NCBI GenBank assembly: GCA_030425045.1
Contig: JAUHVL010000001.1
Location: 1-64,000, forward strand
Direction: 5' to 3'
Source of the DNA: a bacterium
GTDB lineage: Bacteria > Bdellovibrionota > Bacteriovoracia > Bacteriovoracales > Bacteriovoracaceae
Length of the DNA stretch: 64,000 nt
A program made the translations under genes and the position numbers. Below, in pieces: positions 50,465 to 59,989 of the stretch. Under the pieces are notes generated by a model. That model was not told the DNA's origin. It was given only the letters and a program-made list of their open reading frames with translations, and ran no database searches. Within the stretch, counting starts at the first letter, position 1. Each line of letters starts with the position of its first letter.

Positions 50465-50480
50465 TGGTTCTATAGGACCA
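50465..50480. repeat. Isolated 16-bp palindrome downstream of parB
   Basis: TGGTTCTATAGGACCA, identical to two copies in the mnmE array and followed by GTTTTTT, in the 97-bp gap between the bactofilin start and the parB stop. It is the only copy seen outside mnmE. It could fold as a six-pair hairpin with a T-run on the plus strand, but no plus-strand gene needs ending there. Confidence 0.75.
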
Positions 50481-50508
50481 GTTTTTTGAGTTTTAATTTA
50501 AATCTAGA

Positions 50509-51405
50509 TTATTTGCCCTGCATTAAATAATCATAAACGCCATTAAACTCTTCTTCATTATTATAATGAATAACGATTTGTCCTGACCCATTCTTTTTAG
50601 ACTTTATTGCAAAGTGGTATCCTGTTTGCTTCATAAGATTATCAGCAAACTGCTCCATATCTTCATTTTGTGACTTTTTTGATTTTTGCTTAACTTTTTC
50701 TTCCTTGAAGCCTTTTTTCATAAGATCTTCAAGCTCTCTAACTGATAAGTTTTCTTTTACCGCTGTTTCTGCAAATTTTAATGCTAAGTCTTTATCTTTT
50801 TCTCCAGAAAGAACTTTTCCATGGCCAAAGCTCAAAAGCTCTTTTTGAAGCATATCAACAACAGTTCTAGGTAATTTTAAAATTCTTAGAAAGTTTGCAA
50901 CTGTCGAACGCTCTTTTCCTAATTGTTTGGCTAATTGTTCTTGAGTTAAATGATACTCATTCATTAATTGAAAATAAGCTATGGCCTCTTCAACACAGTT
51001 CAAATCTGACCTTTGAATATTTTCAATAACGGCCAAAACCATTTTATCTTTATCTGTGGCCCTTTTAATTATTACTGGAACATGAGTTAAACCAGCAAGC
51101 TTAGAGGCTCTTAATCTTCTTTCACCTGCAATTAATTCAAAGCCGTCTTTCGTTTTGGTTACAATTAGTGGTTGTAAAATTCCATTTTCTTTAATTGAAA
51201 GAGAAAGTTCTTGTAGTTCTTTTTCTTTAAAGATTTTTCTTGGTTGGTTTGGATTAGGCTCAATTGAACCAATTGGAACAGAAGAAGGACTTGTTTCAAC
51301 TTCTTTATTATTTTCTTTCTCTGTTAAGTTTGCTTTTAATAATTCATTTGGTGTTTCTTGAATTAATGAAGCTATACCTTTACCTAATGCAATTTTTTTC
51401 GCCAT
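50509..51405 (-). CDS. parB: Chromosome-partitioning protein ParB
   Basis: CTP-dependent sliding clamp that loads at parS and spreads, directing origin segregation. Seen: PSSVPIGSIEPNPNQPRKIF, the GERRLRASKLAG CTP-binding motif, NIQRSDLNCVEEA, and the HTH LTQEQLAKQLGKERSTVANFLR. A Lys-rich linker separates a C-terminal dimerisation domain. Length 298 is normal. Ten bases separate it from parA, and two perfect parS sites are a few kb away. Confidence 0.97.
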   Translation of the reverse strand: MAKKIALGKGIASLIQETPNELLKANLTEKENNKEVETSPSSVPIGSIEPNPNQPRKIFKEKELQELSLSIKENGILQPLIVTKTKDGFELIAGERRLRASKLAGLTHVPVIIKRATDKDKMVLAVIENIQRSDLNCVEEAIAYFQLMNEYHLTQEQLAKQLGKERSTVANFLRILKLPRTVVDMLQKELLSFGHGKVLSGEKDKDLALKFAETAVKENLSVRELEDLMKKGFKEEKVKQKSKKSQNEDMEQFADNLMKQTGYHFAIKSKKNGSGQIVIHYNNEEEFNGVYDYLMQGK

Positions 51406-51415
51406 TACTTTATCC

Positions 51416-52225
51416 TTAGTTCAACATTCCAGGTTGAATTTCTGCTGAGTCATTTTTTTGTCTTTCTCTTAAAACTAATTCTTTAGCTAAGCTTAAATAT
51501 GCTTCACTTCCTTTTGATTCCAAATCGTATAGAATAATTGGCTTACCAAAACTTGGTGCTTCTGAAAGTTTTACATTTCTTGGGATAGTCGTTTCAAATA
51601 CTTTTGTTCCGAAGTGCTCTTTTACCTCTCCACAGACTTGTTTATGCAGACTGGTTCTAGCATCAGACATCGTTAGTAAAATGCCTTCTATATAAAGCTT
51701 AGGATTTAATGAGTTTTGAATAAGCCTAATTGTATTTAATAATTGAGCAAGCCCTTCCATTGCAAAATATTCAGTCTGAAGTGGAATAATAACAGAGTCT
51801 GATGCCGTTAAAGCATTAACAGCAAGAATATTCATACTAGGCAGACAATCAATAATTACATAATCAAAATATTTGCCTACGCTCTCTAAGGCTATTTTTA
51901 ATTTTTGCTCTCTGGCAAATTCCGTAACAAGTTCTATTTCAGCACCTGCGAGATCTTGATCAGCTGGACATATTTTTAAATTTGGTAAATCTGTTTCATA
52001 AATAGCATCTTCTATACCTATTTTTCCGATCATAACCTGATATATATTATTTTCGGCATATGCCCCCTTCTCAAGGCCAACACCAACACTTGCATTACCT
52101 TGTGGATCTAAATCTACCAACAATACTTTTTTCCCTGTAACAGAGAGACAAGCTGCTAAATTTATAGCGGTTGTCGTCTTGCCTACACCGCCTTTTTGAT
52201 TTGAAACAGCAATAATTTTAGTCAT
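51416..52225 (-). CDS. parA: Chromosome-partitioning ATPase ParA/Soj
   Basis: Deviant Walker ATPase that moves ParB-parS complexes over the nucleoid. Seen: NQKGGVGKTTTAINLA, DLDPQGNASVG, DCLPSMNILAVNAL, and IPLQTEYFAMEGLAQL. Length 269 is standard for Soj-type proteins without an N-terminal HTH. The parA ATG starts directly after the rsmG stop with no gap, so the two are cotranslated. Confidence 0.98.
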   Translation of the reverse strand: MTKIIAVSNQKGGVGKTTTAINLAACLSVTGKKVLLVDLDPQGNASVGVGLEKGAYAENNIYQVMIGKIGIEDAIYETDLPNLKICPADQDLAGAEIELVTEFAREQKLKIALESVGKYFDYVIIDCLPSMNILAVNALTASDSVIIPLQTEYFAMEGLAQLLNTIRLIQNSLNPKLYIEGILLTMSDARTSLHKQVCGEVKEHFGTKVFETTIPRNVKLSEAPSFGKPIILYDLESKGSEAYLSLAKELVLRERQKNDSAEIQPGMLN

Positions 52226-52891
52226 TTAACGCTCCGTATCAACAATTATCTCACTTAACTTCTTTAGCTTTTTCTTTTTAAATGAAGCCGATGTTCCACG
52301 TGGAACATTTTTTTCTAAAATAACAATAGTTCTTTTTTCACCATGGGGCAATTCAAAGTATTCTTTTTTTAACATTCGCCAAGACTTATCAAGCTTCATG
52401 CTCTTTTCTTCGTTTTCATAGTCTGGCCCCTTGTAAAATAAGACAGTTACGTCCTCTGTGCAGTTAAGCTGATCTAGGCAAAGTTGAATTGTGCCGACTG
52501 CTTTAAAGGTAATAAAACAAGGGATATCTATTAAGAGCTCTTCACTTCTATAGTGAAAAGTTTTTACGTTGGTAAGGCCCATTATGTCTGAAATCTGCTG
52601 TACTACTTTCGCTTTTTTTCCCCTGGCCTCTAGACCTAAAAAGTTTTTCTCCTCAAATATTTTAGCTAATGGAATAAGTGGAAATCCACCGCCAAATCCA
52701 ATATCTAGACATAAATCATAATCTTCAAAGCGTGACTTTATACTTTCGAAATTTTCAAATGGAAAAACGCTGTCAATAATTTGCTTATGATAAAAGTCAT
52801 TAGCATCAAGAATTCTAGTTAGGTTGATGCCACTAAACTCGTTAGTATATAAGCTTAGTAAATGATCAGAAAATTCTCTTAAATATTGCAT
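52226..52891 (-). CDS. rsmG: 16S rRNA m7G527 methyltransferase RsmG
   Basis: SAM-dependent methylation of G527 of 16S rRNA. Seen: YDLCLDIGFGGGFPLIPLAKIF SAM loop, GLEARGKKAKVV, and TFKAVGTIQLCLDQL. The C-terminal tail contains NVPRGTS, encoded by one of the two parS sites, so a segregation site is built into the coding sequence. The start overlaps the mnmG end by 13 bp. Length 221 is normal. Confidence 0.94.
   Translation of the reverse strand: MQYLREFSDHLLSLYTNEFSGINLTRILDANDFYHKQIIDSVFPFENFESIKSRFEDYDLCLDIGFGGGFPLIPLAKIFEEKNFLGLEARGKKAKVVQQISDIMGLTNVKTFHYRSEELLIDIPCFITFKAVGTIQLCLDQLNCTEDVTVLFYKGPDYENEEKSMKLDKSWRMLKKEYFELPHGEKRTIVILEKNVPRGTSASFKKKKLKKLSEIIVDTER
52292..52307. other. parS site inside rsmG
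   Basis: Perfect 16-bp palindrome TGTTCCACGTGGAACA, the known parS form for ParB. It lies within the rsmG coding sequence, about 0.9 kb from the parB start. Confidence 0.93.
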
Positions 52892-54717
52892 GCTATAAAA
52901 GCCAGAGTTGCTGGTCGTATGCCATTAATATTTTTTAACTCAGAAAATGTTAATGGTTTAATTGAAGAAATTAGTTGTCGGCACTCTGTTGAGATATTAT
53001 GTGAATTAGAAAGTTCTTCCCAATTAATTTTTCTAGAATCTAGTTTTTCAACCTTTGTGTATTCTCTATCACTTCTTGCTATATAACCTTCATATTTTAT
53101 TGTAATAGAAACTTCTTTAATTAAAGCTGGATTGAGTAATAAGCCTACTTTTTCCAGAAAAGAAGATAAGAACTTGTATGGATCAACATGTCCCATTTTA
53201 AGCACTTCTTCTAGAAATATACCTTTGTCATTTCTAGGTATTTTAAACTTATCAAATAAGCTTTTAAATTCACTGTTAAAATTGAGATGTTTAGATTTAA
53301 TGGCTTTCAATAATACATTTTTTTCTAATAAATATTTTTCATAAAATGAGTCTAGTTTTGTTTTTAGGTTCATTTCCGATCTATATTTATACATTCTTGA
53401 AAAATTATTATCTTCTCGTATAAATAATCTATTTTCTGAGCGAGCAGTAAAAAGCCTATAAGGTTCTTCCCTATAGTTTGTCACTAAGTCTTCAATTAAA
53501 ACACCAATATAGCTATCTCTCCTAGAAAAAGTTATTTTATCTCTTCCAAGTAAAGATAAAGAAGAAGAGAGGCCTGCAACGAAGCCTTGTGCAGCAGCTT
53601 CTTCATAGCCAGAAGTTCCGTTTACCTGGCCGGCAAAGTATAATCCAGGAATTGCTTTGTACTCTAATTGCTTATCTAGTTCCCGAGTGTCGACAACATC
53701 ATATTCTACTGCATAACCATAATTAATTATCTCTGAATCTTTTAAAGCAGGAATAGTTTTGAGTATTTTCTCTTGAACAGTCTTGGGTAAACTTGTCGAT
53801 AGTCCGTTTGGATAGACTGTTTCTATATCTAAGCCTTCTTTTTCTATAAAAAGATGATGCTTTTTTCTATCAGGGTATCGAAAAACCTTATCTTCTATAC
53901 TTGGGCAGTATCTAGGTCCAACAGCCATAATCTGCCCATTAAATAAAGGAGAAGAATTTTTACTCGACTCAATTAAATTATGAGTTTCTTCGTTGGTCCA
54001 AGTAATATAGCAGTCGATTTGCTTTAAAAACCTTTTAGACAACTCATGAGAAAAGTGAAAATTAAAAGTATTTGAATCAGAAGGCTGAACCTCCATCATT
54101 TCATAATTTATAGTATTTCTATTAAGCCTAGGTGGAGTACCAGTTTTAAACTTTTTTACGTTTGTTTTAACATTGGAAAATATCTCTTTTGCACCACTAG
54201 AGTTATCAGACTCATATCTTCCACCAGTTCTTACCTCAGATCCAATATGTGTTCTTCCAGATAAAAAGGTACCAGCAGTAACTATCAATTTTTTACATTC
54301 TAAAATCCGGCCAGACTCAAGGCTTAACTCAAAACAGTTTTCTGAAGCAACACCCATAAGCTTGTCACGGATAATTTCAATTCTCGTTTCCGTTGAGATA
54401 ATTTTTTCAGCGAATTCTGTATATCTTTCTTTATCAACTTGCACCCTAGTACTATGAACCGCATAACCCTTGCTCTCATTAAGAGTTCTGTATTGAATGC
54501 CAGCTAAATCAGCAAGTCTTCCCATTAAACCACCGAGAGCATCAAGCTCTTTAACGACCTGTCCTTTACCAACGCCACCAATTGCAGGATTACATGGTGT
54601 AGACGCAAGACCTACTCCGGGAAGTGTGACGATTCCAACATTTAAATTGAATTGGCTTGCAATCCAGGCAGCTTCAACGCCGGCGTGACCACCGCCAATA
54701 ATAAGTATGTCAAACAT
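52879..54717 (-). CDS. mnmG: tRNA uridine 5-carboxymethylaminomethyl-modifying enzyme MnmG (GidA)
   Basis: FAD- and NADH-dependent partner of MnmE for cmnm5U34 in tRNA. Seen: FDILIIGGGHAGVEAAWIA dinucleotide motif, CNPAIGGVGKGQVVKELDALGG, GTPPRLNR, YCPSIEDKV, and GLYFAGQVNGTSGYEEAAAQG. The ATG at 54717 is used because the upstream ATG at 54744 would begin inside a parS site and add nine unrelated residues; GGAG lies four bases upstream of 54717. Confidence 0.97.
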   Translation of the reverse strand: MFDILIIGGGHAGVEAAWIASQFNLNVGIVTLPGVGLASTPCNPAIGGVGKGQVVKELDALGGLMGRLADLAGIQYRTLNESKGYAVHSTRVQVDKERYTEFAEKIISTETRIEIIRDKLMGVASENCFELSLESGRILECKKLIVTAGTFLSGRTHIGSEVRTGGRYESDNSSGAKEIFSNVKTNVKKFKTGTPPRLNRNTINYEMMEVQPSDSNTFNFHFSHELSKRFLKQIDCYITWTNEETHNLIESSKNSSPLFNGQIMAVGPRYCPSIEDKVFRYPDRKKHHLFIEKEGLDIETVYPNGLSTSLPKTVQEKILKTIPALKDSEIINYGYAVEYDVVDTRELDKQLEYKAIPGLYFAGQVNGTSGYEEAAAQGFVAGLSSSLSLLGRDKITFSRRDSYIGVLIEDLVTNYREEPYRLFTARSENRLFIREDNNFSRMYKYRSEMNLKTKLDSFYEKYLLEKNVLLKAIKSKHLNFNSEFKSLFDKFKIPRNDKGIFLEEVLKMGHVDPYKFLSSFLEKVGLLLNPALIKEVSITIKYEGYIARSDREYTKVEKLDSRKINWEELSNSHNISTECRQLISSIKPLTFSELKNINGIRPATLAFIACNI

Positions 54718-54727
54718 AGCTCTCCAA

Positions 54728-54743
54728 TGTTCCACGTGGAACA
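54728..54743. other. parS site between mnmE and mnmG
   Basis: A second perfect copy of TGTTCCACGTGGAACA, in the short gap before the mnmG start. With the copy in rsmG it frames mnmG. Both are within about 6 kb of the dnaA-dnaN origin candidate. Confidence 0.94.
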
Positions 54744-54762
54744 TTATTTACTTTATGTTTTG

Positions 54763-56268
54763 TTATTTTCCAATGCAGAAGTTTGAAAATACATGGTTTA
54801 GTACGTTATCTGGGGTTGTAATACCTAGCAACTCATCAAGAAGGATAGATAACCTATTGAATTCATGTGAAAACAGAGTAATATCATCAAGTAAGTAATT
54901 ATTATTACTTAATTCGCACCACTCGTTGAAAATATTTAAAATCAAGTTTTTCTGACGATCTGAGTTTATACCTACTTCTTTTGAAACTATATTAAACTTT
55001 TGTTCAATAAATCTCTCTATATCATTGAATTTATTGGATTTTATATATGGTTCTATAGAACCACTTTTAACATCTGGTCCGATAGGACCATCAATAATAA
55101 GTAACTTTGGTTCTATAGGACCACTTTTTATAAAATCAATTGGTTCTATAGGACCAGCTTCTTTTGTCCAAACTGGTCCGATAGGACCACTTTTTTCACT
55201 GAAACTAAATGGAGGTATCTTATTGTTTTTACTATAAAATTCTTTAAACTTTTCTAAAAAACTTGGCTGCTGTGCATGTGTAAATATCAATAAATCAACG
55301 TCTGAGACTGCATAAGTTTTCTTATTAAATAAATTGATAACCTGAATTTTAAAAAAAGCATTTTTAACAGCAGTAAAACTTCTTTTTACCCCTTCTTGCT
55401 CAACTTTATCTTTTGATTCTCTTATTCCTGCAGTATCTATTAAACGAAACTGATTATTATTTATAACAATTGATTCAGAAACCAGATCCCTAGTGGTTCC
55501 CTCAATATTTGTAACGATTGATCGATCAAAAGATAAAAAATTATTAAAAAAAGTACTTTTACCAGAGTTAGGTTCACCAATTAAAGCTATCGAAGGATTA
55601 AATAGTGAACCGGTATCAACCTCTGTTCTCTTTTTTAATGAAAACAGCAATCTTTCAAACTGTTGAGTTCGATCTTTTAATAATTGATCAAACTTCTCTT
55701 CCCCAATATCATCTAAAAAATCAATCCCTAGCTCAATCGCCGATCTCAAATTTAGATAACTTTCACGTAATTGACAGTAACTATTGTACAATTCTCCATT
55801 TAAACCAGATAAGCCTTCTGTTAAGGCGTAAGTATTTTTGGCATTTAAAAATTGCTCTAACCCTTCGAGCTGAAATAAATCCATTTTATTATTTTTATAA
55901 GCTCGGTATGAAAACTCACCAGGGAGTGCTAATTGAAAATTATACTGGTTACAAAAATATTTAAGAATTCGATTAATATTGAGCTGATTACCGTGGACAT
56001 GAAGTTCAATCAAATTTTCGCCAGTGTAGCTAGCAGGTGCTCGGAAACTTAATAATAAAACTTCATCAATTATACTCTTAGAAGATTTATCAATAATTTT
56101 ACAAAAATAGGCTTTTCTATCTTCAATTCTATTAAAATCGATACTTAGTGAATCATTGATTAATGAAAGGCTATCTGGAGAAGAGATCCTTAAGATTGCA
56201 ATAGCGGTATTTTCTTTTCTCCCCGTACTACAAGCAATGATTGGCCCTGAATGATCAAAATTTATCAT
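54763..56268 (-). CDS. mnmE: tRNA modification GTPase MnmE (TrmE) with repeat insert and degenerate G domain
   Basis: GTPase partner of MnmG in cmnm5U34 tRNA modification. The N-terminal folate-binding domain (about 5-125), helical part, G1 GEPNSGKST (near residue 230), G2 GTTRD and G3 DTAGIRES are intact, and the C-terminus ends FCIGK with the catalytic Cys. But no NKxD (G4) or SA (G5) motif is visible: their place (about 345-410) holds five GPI[G/E]P-type repeats encoded by 16-bp palindromes. Length 501 versus about 455 usual. Guanine specificity may be lost or supplied differently. The start overlaps the yidC stop by one base. Confidence 0.93.
   Translation of the reverse strand: MINFDHSGPIIACSTGRKENTAIAILRISSPDSLSLINDSLSIDFNRIEDRKAYFCKIIDKSSKSIIDEVLLLSFRAPASYTGENLIELHVHGNQLNINRILKYFCNQYNFQLALPGEFSYRAYKNNKMDLFQLEGLEQFLNAKNTYALTEGLSGLNGELYNSYCQLRESYLNLRSAIELGIDFLDDIGEEKFDQLLKDRTQQFERLLFSLKKRTEVDTGSLFNPSIALIGEPNSGKSTFFNNFLSFDRSIVTNIEGTTRDLVSESIVINNNQFRLIDTAGIRESKDKVEQEGVKRSFTAVKNAFFKIQVINLFNKKTYAVSDVDLLIFTHAQQPSFLEKFKEFYSKNNKIPPFSFSEKSGPIGPVWTKEAGPIEPIDFIKSGPIEPKLLIIDGPIGPDVKSGSIEPYIKSNKFNDIERFIEQKFNIVSKEVGINSDRQKNLILNIFNEWCELSNNNYLLDDITLFSHEFNRLSILLDELLGITTPDNVLNHVFSNFCIGK
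55048..55189. repeat. Array of five in-frame 16-bp palindromes within mnmE
   Basis: Copies begin at 55048 (TGGTTCTATAGAACCA, perfect), 55075 and 55174 (TGGTCCGATAGGACCA), 55108 and 55141 (TGGTTCTATAGGACCA). Steps are 27, 33, 33 and 33 bp, all multiples of three, so each copy is read in the same frame as GPI[G/E]P or GSIEP. Most copies are followed by a short T-run on the plus strand, which also occurs at the isolated 50465 copy, so the unit may be a little longer than 16 bp. Intervening 11-17 bp are unrelated between units. Confidence 0.9.
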
Positions 56269-58517: not shown

Positions 58518-58723
58518 ATATTACACCTTGTCAAAATCGAAATAAGTAGGTTCTTTTACATTCTTAATAACAGAAGGTCAATTAACCTAGCGGAATGCAC
58601 AAGAAAAATGTAAGAAATCTTAAGGCATACTGACCTATCTCACTATTGCACTATCTTTCAATCTCATGCTACAAATCTCTCCCCTACATAAGACAACAAT
58701 TACTCGATGTGAAAGGACTTTCT

Positions 58724-59989
58724 ATGCCCGGAGATTTTCCGTTTGAACTGTTTCTAAAAGACAACAAAAACAATAATTTAAGTAATATTTTAGGGAATGA
58801 TGAATCTTTAGAAAAAGAAACCGAGAACCAACCAACTCAACTAACTGGTGAAGCTCAAGATGACGATAAAAAACCAAGCTTTAAGCTCGATCTGAACCCT
58901 ACAGCCGAAGATATTAATTCAGCTGTTGAATCTCAATATATTAACCATATAAAAAATCATAATTCTGGACAATTGATCGACCCATCCAAAACTTTTGAAA
59001 GTTTTATTGTCGGTCCATCAAATAATCTGGCCTTTGCCACTGCTTTAGCTGTTTCAGAATCTCCTGGAAAAACAGGCAAATACCCTTGTTTGTATATTTA
59101 TAGTGATTCAGGACTAGGAAAGACTCACTTATTACACAGTGTAGCAAACGGGATTTCTAAAAGATTTCCAGAACTCGTTATTTGTCTTATTTCAGCTAGA
59201 GAATTCATGAAAGAATACATCAACGCTATAAAAGACAAAAAATTGAATGAATTTCAAAAGAAATACTCTGAAACTGTTGATGTTTTAATGATCGACGATA
59301 TTCATGAGCTAAAGAATAAAGCATCAACCCAAGAAGAGTTCTTTCATATTTTTAATGAGCTCCATACAATGGGCAAACAGCTTATCTTTACATCTGATAA
59401 GCCACCAAAGGCCATCACAGGTATTGAAGAAAGAATTATAACAAGACTTCAATGGGGACTTGTTATTGATATTCAAAGACCTGACTTGGAGACAAGAATT
59501 GCTATTCTTAAAAAGAAAGCTTTAGAGCTGGATCTCTATCTTCCAGATGAAGTTCTAAATCAAATCGCCAGTAATATTAAAACTAGTATTCGAGAACTAG
59601 AAGGCTCACTTATTAAACTCAAGGCAACAGCTGACCTCATGAACGTAGAAATTGATTTTGAGACAGCAAAGGACGCTCTAAATCTAATACCCGAAGCATC
59701 TATTAAAAATAATACTATTGAGACTATCGCCAAGACAGTATCAACCTACTATAAAATTCCACTAGCTGACCTAAAATCAAAATCTAGAAATAAAGAAATA
59801 GTGAAAGCTAGACATATTGCTTGGTATTTATCGAAAACTATAATTGAGTCAACATTCAAAGAAATTGCTGCTTTTTATGGCGGAAGAGATCACTCCTCTG
59901 TTATCCATGGTGTTAATAAAATTTCTCAGCAAATGAAAACAGACTCGTTAGTTTCAAAAGATATTATCTATCTAGAGAATAATCTCTAA
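58724..59989 (+). CDS. dnaA: Chromosomal replication initiator DnaA, atypical N-terminus
   Basis: AAA+ origin-opening protein. ATG at 58724 is used, with AAAGGA six bases upstream; an earlier in-frame ATG at 58646 adds 26 residues with no ribosome site. Domain III starts near residue 85 (PSKTFESFIVGPSNNLAFA), Walker B is MIDDIHEL, and domain IV ends with GGRDHSSVIHGVNKI. Odd points: the first 80 residues do not look like DnaA domain I, being short, acidic and low-complexity, and Walker A is SDSGLGKT, with Ser for the first Gly of the usual GGVGLGKT. Total 421 residues. Confidence 0.93.
   Translation: MPGDFPFELFLKDNKNNNLSNILGNDESLEKETENQPTQLTGEAQDDDKKPSFKLDLNPTAEDINSAVESQYINHIKNHNSGQLIDPSKTFESFIVGPSNNLAFATALAVSESPGKTGKYPCLYIYSDSGLGKTHLLHSVANGISKRFPELVICLISAREFMKEYINAIKDKKLNEFQKKYSETVDVLMIDDIHELKNKASTQEEFFHIFNELHTMGKQLIFTSDKPPKAITGIEERIITRLQWGLVIDIQRPDLETRIAILKKKALELDLYLPDEVLNQIASNIKTSIRELEGSLIKLKATADLMNVEIDFETAKDALNLIPEASIKNNTIETIAKTVSTYYKIPLADLKSKSRNKEIVKARHIAWYLSKTIIESTFKEIAAFYGGRDHSSVIHGVNKISQQMKTDSLVSKDIIYLENNL

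Follow-up and report, generated by a model that had tools for sequence, protein, structure and literature searches.

What has become of the GTPase domain of MnmE at this locus, and what are the repeats that lie within it? The window, a stretch of 64,000 nucleotides from a member of the Bacteriovoracaceae, encodes an MnmE in which palindrome-coded peptide repeats stand close to the place of the G4 and G5 motifs. The original prediction held that both motifs had been lost, that the repeats filled their stretch, and that the enzyme might either be altered or have a lost part replaced by the repeat region. We analysed the protein, aligned to 28 relatives from the class and to two outgroups (31 sequences), and the DNA that encodes it. 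The parts of MnmE relevant here are:

54763..56268, minus strand: mnmE, 501 aa, full length; its AF2 model matches the MnmE structures 9hip, 1xzq and 3gee
55555..55578, minus strand: G1 GEPNSGKS, residues 231-238, intact, from invariant residues in the MnmE alignment
residues 257-261 of MnmE: G2 GTTRD, intact
55426..55437, minus strand: G3 DTAG, residues 278-281, intact, from the MnmE alignment
55399..55401, minus strand: E290, an invariant column among the 31 aligned MnmEs
55270..55281, minus strand: divergent G4 THAQ in place of NKxD, residues 330-333, from the MnmE alignment

The domains of the protein exceeded their Pfam cut-offs (TrmE_N PF10396 with 101.8 bits, GTPase PF01926 with 72.2 bits, helical domain PF12631 with 61 bits), and the top structural matches of its AF2 model were MnmE structures (9hip_A, E=5.5e-28, TM-score 0.72). 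The full-length protein missed the curated NCBIfam equivalog cut-offs (250.6 versus 252.6 for TIGR00450 and 265.5 versus 380 for NF003661). G1, G2 and G3 are intact as predicted, the Cys motif FCIGK (C[IV]GK type) closes the C-terminus at residues 497-501, and the folate, helical and Cys parts persist. We take E290, judged from motif spacing, to be the counterpart of the catalytic Glu282 (E282) of E. coli MnmE. The protein shares TrmE_N, G1-G3, the helical domain, the FCIGK tail and the whole-protein fold with the known MnmE (TrmE) GTPase, but differs in G4 (THAQ here, [TS]HxD in the class), the absence of G5, the inserted repeats and the missed NCBIfam cut-offs.

Neither NKxD nor an SA/SAK motif was found in the window MnmE, which bears out the absence of the canonical motifs. 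The place of G4 is nevertheless identifiable, since THAQ shares its alignment columns with the [TS]HxD of relatives and the NKID/SKSD of the outgroups. It lies about 28 residues upstream of the first repeat, which starts at residue 361; the repeats thus fill the G5 region, but not G4 as had been proposed. The G4 Asn was present in none of the 29 aligned Bacteriovoracia MnmEs, where [TS]-H-x-D is usual: the first letter is T in 21 and S in 8, the second is H in 27 and the fourth is D in 22, with Q, K, E, R or T replacing the Asp in the remaining seven, the window protein among these. One further class fragment (L056) kept NKSD at the G4 place. SAK of G5 was absent throughout the class alignment, including the repeat-poor or repeat-free L018, L064, L065 and L072. 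A resemblance of THAQ to the G4 of the plant Toc33/34 GTPases was considered, but neither a PDB sequence search nor a literature search supported it.

Structure prediction recovered the MnmE fold of the window protein, but pLDDT fell below 50 at residues 316-335, 350-360 and 363-409, so that this model does not resolve G4 and G5. For a repeat-poor relative (L083, mean pLDDT 82), the model placed THKD (residues 333-336) between a strand (329-332) and a helix, which is the normal location of G4, and formed no G5 strand. Repeat-poor and repeat-free members show the same G4 and G5 changes, so the loss of the motifs was not caused by the repeats. The class alignment upheld the missing Asn and the missing G5, but not a loss specific to repeat-bearing proteins, and a replacement of some lost enzyme part by the repeats is not supported. 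At the level of sequence, the class-wide divergence of G4 and G5 is real, and the expectation of an altered enzyme fits the base-recognition part, which appears changed (N lost, K to H and, in this protein, Asp to Gln; no G5). Nucleotide specificity or affinity has probably changed, independently of the repeats, and MnmE may be an active P-loop enzyme with relaxed base recognition. The repeats occupy an already free G5 loop.

We then turned from the peptide to the DNA. Each MnmE repeat is, at the DNA level, a 16-bp palindrome TGGTYCTATAGRACCA, and the sites and their neighbours in the window are:

55174..55189: site TGGTCCGATAGGACCA, read GPIGP in MnmE
55141..55156: site TGGTTCTATAGGACCA, read GPIEP in MnmE
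55108..55123: site TGGTTCTATAGGACCA, read GPIEP in MnmE
55075..55090: site TGGTCCGATAGGACCA, read GPIGP in MnmE
55048..55063: site TGGTTCTATAGAACCA, read GSIEP in MnmE
50465..50480: sixth site, in noncoding DNA that separates the bactofilin gene from the 3' end of parB
50509..51405, minus strand: canonical parB, specificity residues R173/G201 (Caulobacter numbering)
51416..52225, minus strand: canonical parA, from sequence and gene order
52292..52307: canonical parS TGTTCCACGTGGAACA
54728..54743: canonical parS TGTTCCACGTGGAACA
58646..59989, plus strand: dnaA, marker of the oriC region

The palindromic coding of the repeats, part of the original prediction, was confirmed: the window has seven matches where chance would give 0.72. 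A search of the 3.97-Mb genome for a relaxed form, GGTYCNATNGRACC, gave six copies, all of them at 50465-55189 (4.8 kb, beside parB/oriC) and five inside mnmE; a genome-wide mobile palindrome was rejected, as there are only these six copies. Within the window the palindromic sites are 90% alike and the spacers 42%. A degenerate site-like sequence, GGCTCAATTGAACC, lies at 51257-51270 over the conserved IEPNPxQPRK motif of parB and may be due to chance.

Are the repeats conserved as protein or as DNA? We picked the mnmE repeats by peptide alone and compared their codons with the rest of mnmE. The first Gly was GGT in 109 of 109 repeats (36% elsewhere in mnmE) and Ile was ATA in 99 of 103 (24% elsewhere), while the fourth-position Gly was always GGA (54/54) and Ser always TCT (27/27). 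The pattern extends into the flanks, with T as the preceding base in 104 of 109 repeats and A as the 15th base in 98 of 109. Across 41 oriC loci, four of them from named relatives, 34 of the 225 sites are noncoding and 17 lie in frames other than that of GPIGP; each half-site is one of GGTCC, GGTTC and GCCCC, around a centre that is nearly always NATA.

If the GPIGP/GPIEP repeats were a functional element of the protein, standing in for G4/G5 of MnmE, this would account for their position within the G domain and for the frame that they share across nearly all mnmE arrays. But fixed silent positions, and copies that are noncoding, in other frames or in other genes, speak against it, as do a hypervariable copy number (0-17 in one genus), the same G4/G5 in members with few or no repeats, and a repeat region modelled at pLDDT below 50. 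We consider such an element very unlikely. RNA hairpins in the mRNA are no more credible: a perfect copy could fold into a 5-bp stem, and one gene cluster holds most copies, but the commonest coding-strand form, GGTCC..GAACC (41 copies), has a C-A mismatch, the wobble-compatible GGTTC..GGACC is rarer (17), GGGGC forms break the stem, and copies also occur in dnaA on the opposite strand. From these pairing patterns, predicted from sequence, we rejected the hairpin reading.

Of 129 class genomes, 116 contain the strict 16-mer, as does one of 240 other Bdellovibrionota; the reversed control gave none. In 36 genomes, 142 of the 173 strict sites (82%) fell within the 0.52% of the DNA fetched around mnmE, a lower bound for local sites as several contigs end inside this region; the corresponding density is about 220 per Mb around mnmE versus 0.25 per Mb elsewhere. 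In five genomes (G002, G007, G010, G012 and G014) every copy was local. Placement recurs across genera in mnmE, the bactofilin-parB gap, mnmG, parB, rsmG, yidC and dnaA, and the noncoding bactofilin-parB arrays show a spacing of 23-34 bp, much like the coding arrays. In G028, mnmE is without sites and three copies lie just beside mnmG. Some members carry few sites (one or two) or mostly variant sites (G004, G016), and named relatives have the 16-mer as well, including a MAG labelled Bacteriovorax stolpii. Among viral contigs with exact 16-mers, the sole two-copy contig (L260) has both within an ORF other than mnmE that encodes collagen-like GP repeats.

Tandem minisatellites, neutral and without function, could explain the variable copy number and the near-identical units of some species (L003, L012). 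Against them stand conserved palindromes separated by divergent spacers, noncoding copies from the same site family and the confinement to oriC across the whole class, and of the readings considered we give this one the least credence. Since silent positions are fixed, copies occur in noncoding DNA, other frames and other genes, and the sites are confined to oriC, the repeats are constrained as DNA. The GPIGP/GPIEP repeats are best read as coding passengers of a DNA site array, and we are highly confident that an oriC-proximal array of DNA sites is established as far as sequence can establish it.

Three side observations concern these loci. In G028, an ABC transporter cluster, branched-chain amino-acid-like by sequence appearance, lies between mnmG and mnmE (L048, 3300-9700). 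Palindrome copies range from 0 to 17 among the species of genus g15, possibly as a fast-evolving marker. The dnaA/rnpA-yidC segment of G032 (L051) is inverted relative to other members.

Which protein might read the array? The source genome encodes three ParB_N proteins. One of them, ParB2 (292 aa), adjoins a 257-aa ParA2. With E up to 1e-25, ParB2 was detected in 119 class genomes out of 129, against none of 240 other Bdellovibrionota. Of the 73 high-quality class genomes, 72 have it, and the remaining one, G026, has its parA2 truncated by a contig end. The ParB_N domain scored 58.4 bits (cut-off 26.3) and the GERR[FY]RA motif was present in 37 of 37 rows, while Pfam HTH_ParB scored below its cut-off. 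The closest solved structure is Noc (PDB 7ol9); the curated Noc cut-off was missed (TIGR04285, 97.2 versus 315). In ParB2, the four positions that determine ParB/Noc specificity carry K, S/C (rarely G/A), K/R and Y. Residues 173/201 are K/Y in 37 of 37 ParB2 rows versus R/G in 29 of 29 canonical ParB rows of the class, the protein of the source genome being counted twice in each set. R173 and G201 are absolutely conserved in ParB, with R173 facing position 1 of the site and residue 201 facing position 6; in Noc, the specificity residues are QKKR and the NBS is altered at positions 1 and 6 (Jalal et al., PMC7383237).

The half-site TGGTYCTA matches the parS half-site TGTTYCAC at five of eight positions in the same 16-bp register, a likeness expected for about 4% of random half-sites; position 1 is kept and positions 2, 6 and 7 differ. 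The candidate system thus resembles chromosomal ParABS in its 16-bp palindromes clustered near oriC, its ParA-ParB gene pair and a ParB_N with GERRxRA. It differs from ParB-parS in K173/Y201 for R173/G201 and in an operon distant from the candidate sites (in G002, some 380 kb from dnaA along one chromosome), and, on the side of the site, in the three half-site differences, the tight arrays and the presence of canonical ParB-parS in the same genome. With Noc-NBS of Firmicutes it shares a ParB paralogue with a changed site, Noc as the best PDB match and a lysine at 184, but ParB2 has K-S/C-K-Y instead of QKKR, its own ParA2 and sites confined to the oriC region. In B. bacteriovorus, additional parA genes have no second ParB adjoining them (PMC7186360), and there are two parS sites (PMC10547168). 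The ParA2-ParB2 pair is undescribed. Searches of the open literature gave no match for the palindrome sequence and nothing relevant on Bacteriovorax palindromic repeats or on ParB with Bacteriovorax/Halobacteriovorax.

The array might instead be read by another protein, for instance a regulator or a factor of replication or of the nucleoid. Support is strong for the array but indirect for its link to ParB2, and because site and ParB2 share one clade, their co-occurrence is in effect one evolutionary event. Moreover, the palindromic site was not found at the parA2B2 locus in the six genomes examined, though centromeres need not be there. But ParB2 is both universal in the class and confined to it, belongs to the right family and recognises DNA through a surface that is altered yet conserved, and the site resembles parS; we regard a different reader as a serious yet rather unlikely alternative.

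Taken as a whole, our favoured explanation, which we hold to be probable, is that the mnmE repeats are an oriC-proximal DNA site array most likely read by ParB2. The 16-bp palindrome, with GCCCC in variant half-sites, is kept class-wide in one to about a dozen copies along bactofilin-parB-parA-rsmG-mnmG-mnmE-yidC-dnaA, and mnmE hosts most copies, probably as its loop at the G5 place tolerates insertions. ParB2, of the ParB/Noc family and encoded with ParA2 elsewhere on the chromosome, is the most likely reader, with the palindromic site, as TGGTCCTATAGGACCA, as its candidate target. ParB2-CTP may load at these sites and then spread, and, together with ParA2, it may segregate the origin region, position it, serve in a Noc-like manner or take part in replication control; binding, spreading and biological role at the sites are all putative. 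Whether a Bacteriovoracia chromosome carries two ParABS systems, the second with its centromere array in mnmE and tolerated there through lost normal guanine recognition, we judge to be an even bet.

How predatory bacteria segregate their chromosomes while splitting into many daughters simultaneously is a question that the field has yet to answer. If the explanation is true, a second ParABS-like system would operate on one chromosome with its centromere hidden in a housekeeping gene, and the class-wide second ParAB, paired with its matching array at oriC, would constitute a new system for segregation or for positioning the nucleoid. ParB2 would add a third natural specificity to the ParB/Noc family, whose recognition rules are worked out. 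The locus also exemplifies a DNA site array that evolved within a conserved enzyme, in a loop that relaxed G4/G5 motifs had left free, and it warns that the GPIGP 'protein repeats' are DNA signals.

The third ParB_N protein of the source genome (C59) was rejected as reader, as it occurs in only 17 of 59 genomes; this ParB_N-like protein (L164, C59:151773-152687, 305 aa) lies beside an ArgR-like gene. At six parA2B2 loci (L165-L170), ParA2 (72-78%) is more conserved than ParB2 (62-68%), and the pair adjoins cysteine-desulfurase-like and rhodanese-like genes, named from sequence appearance.
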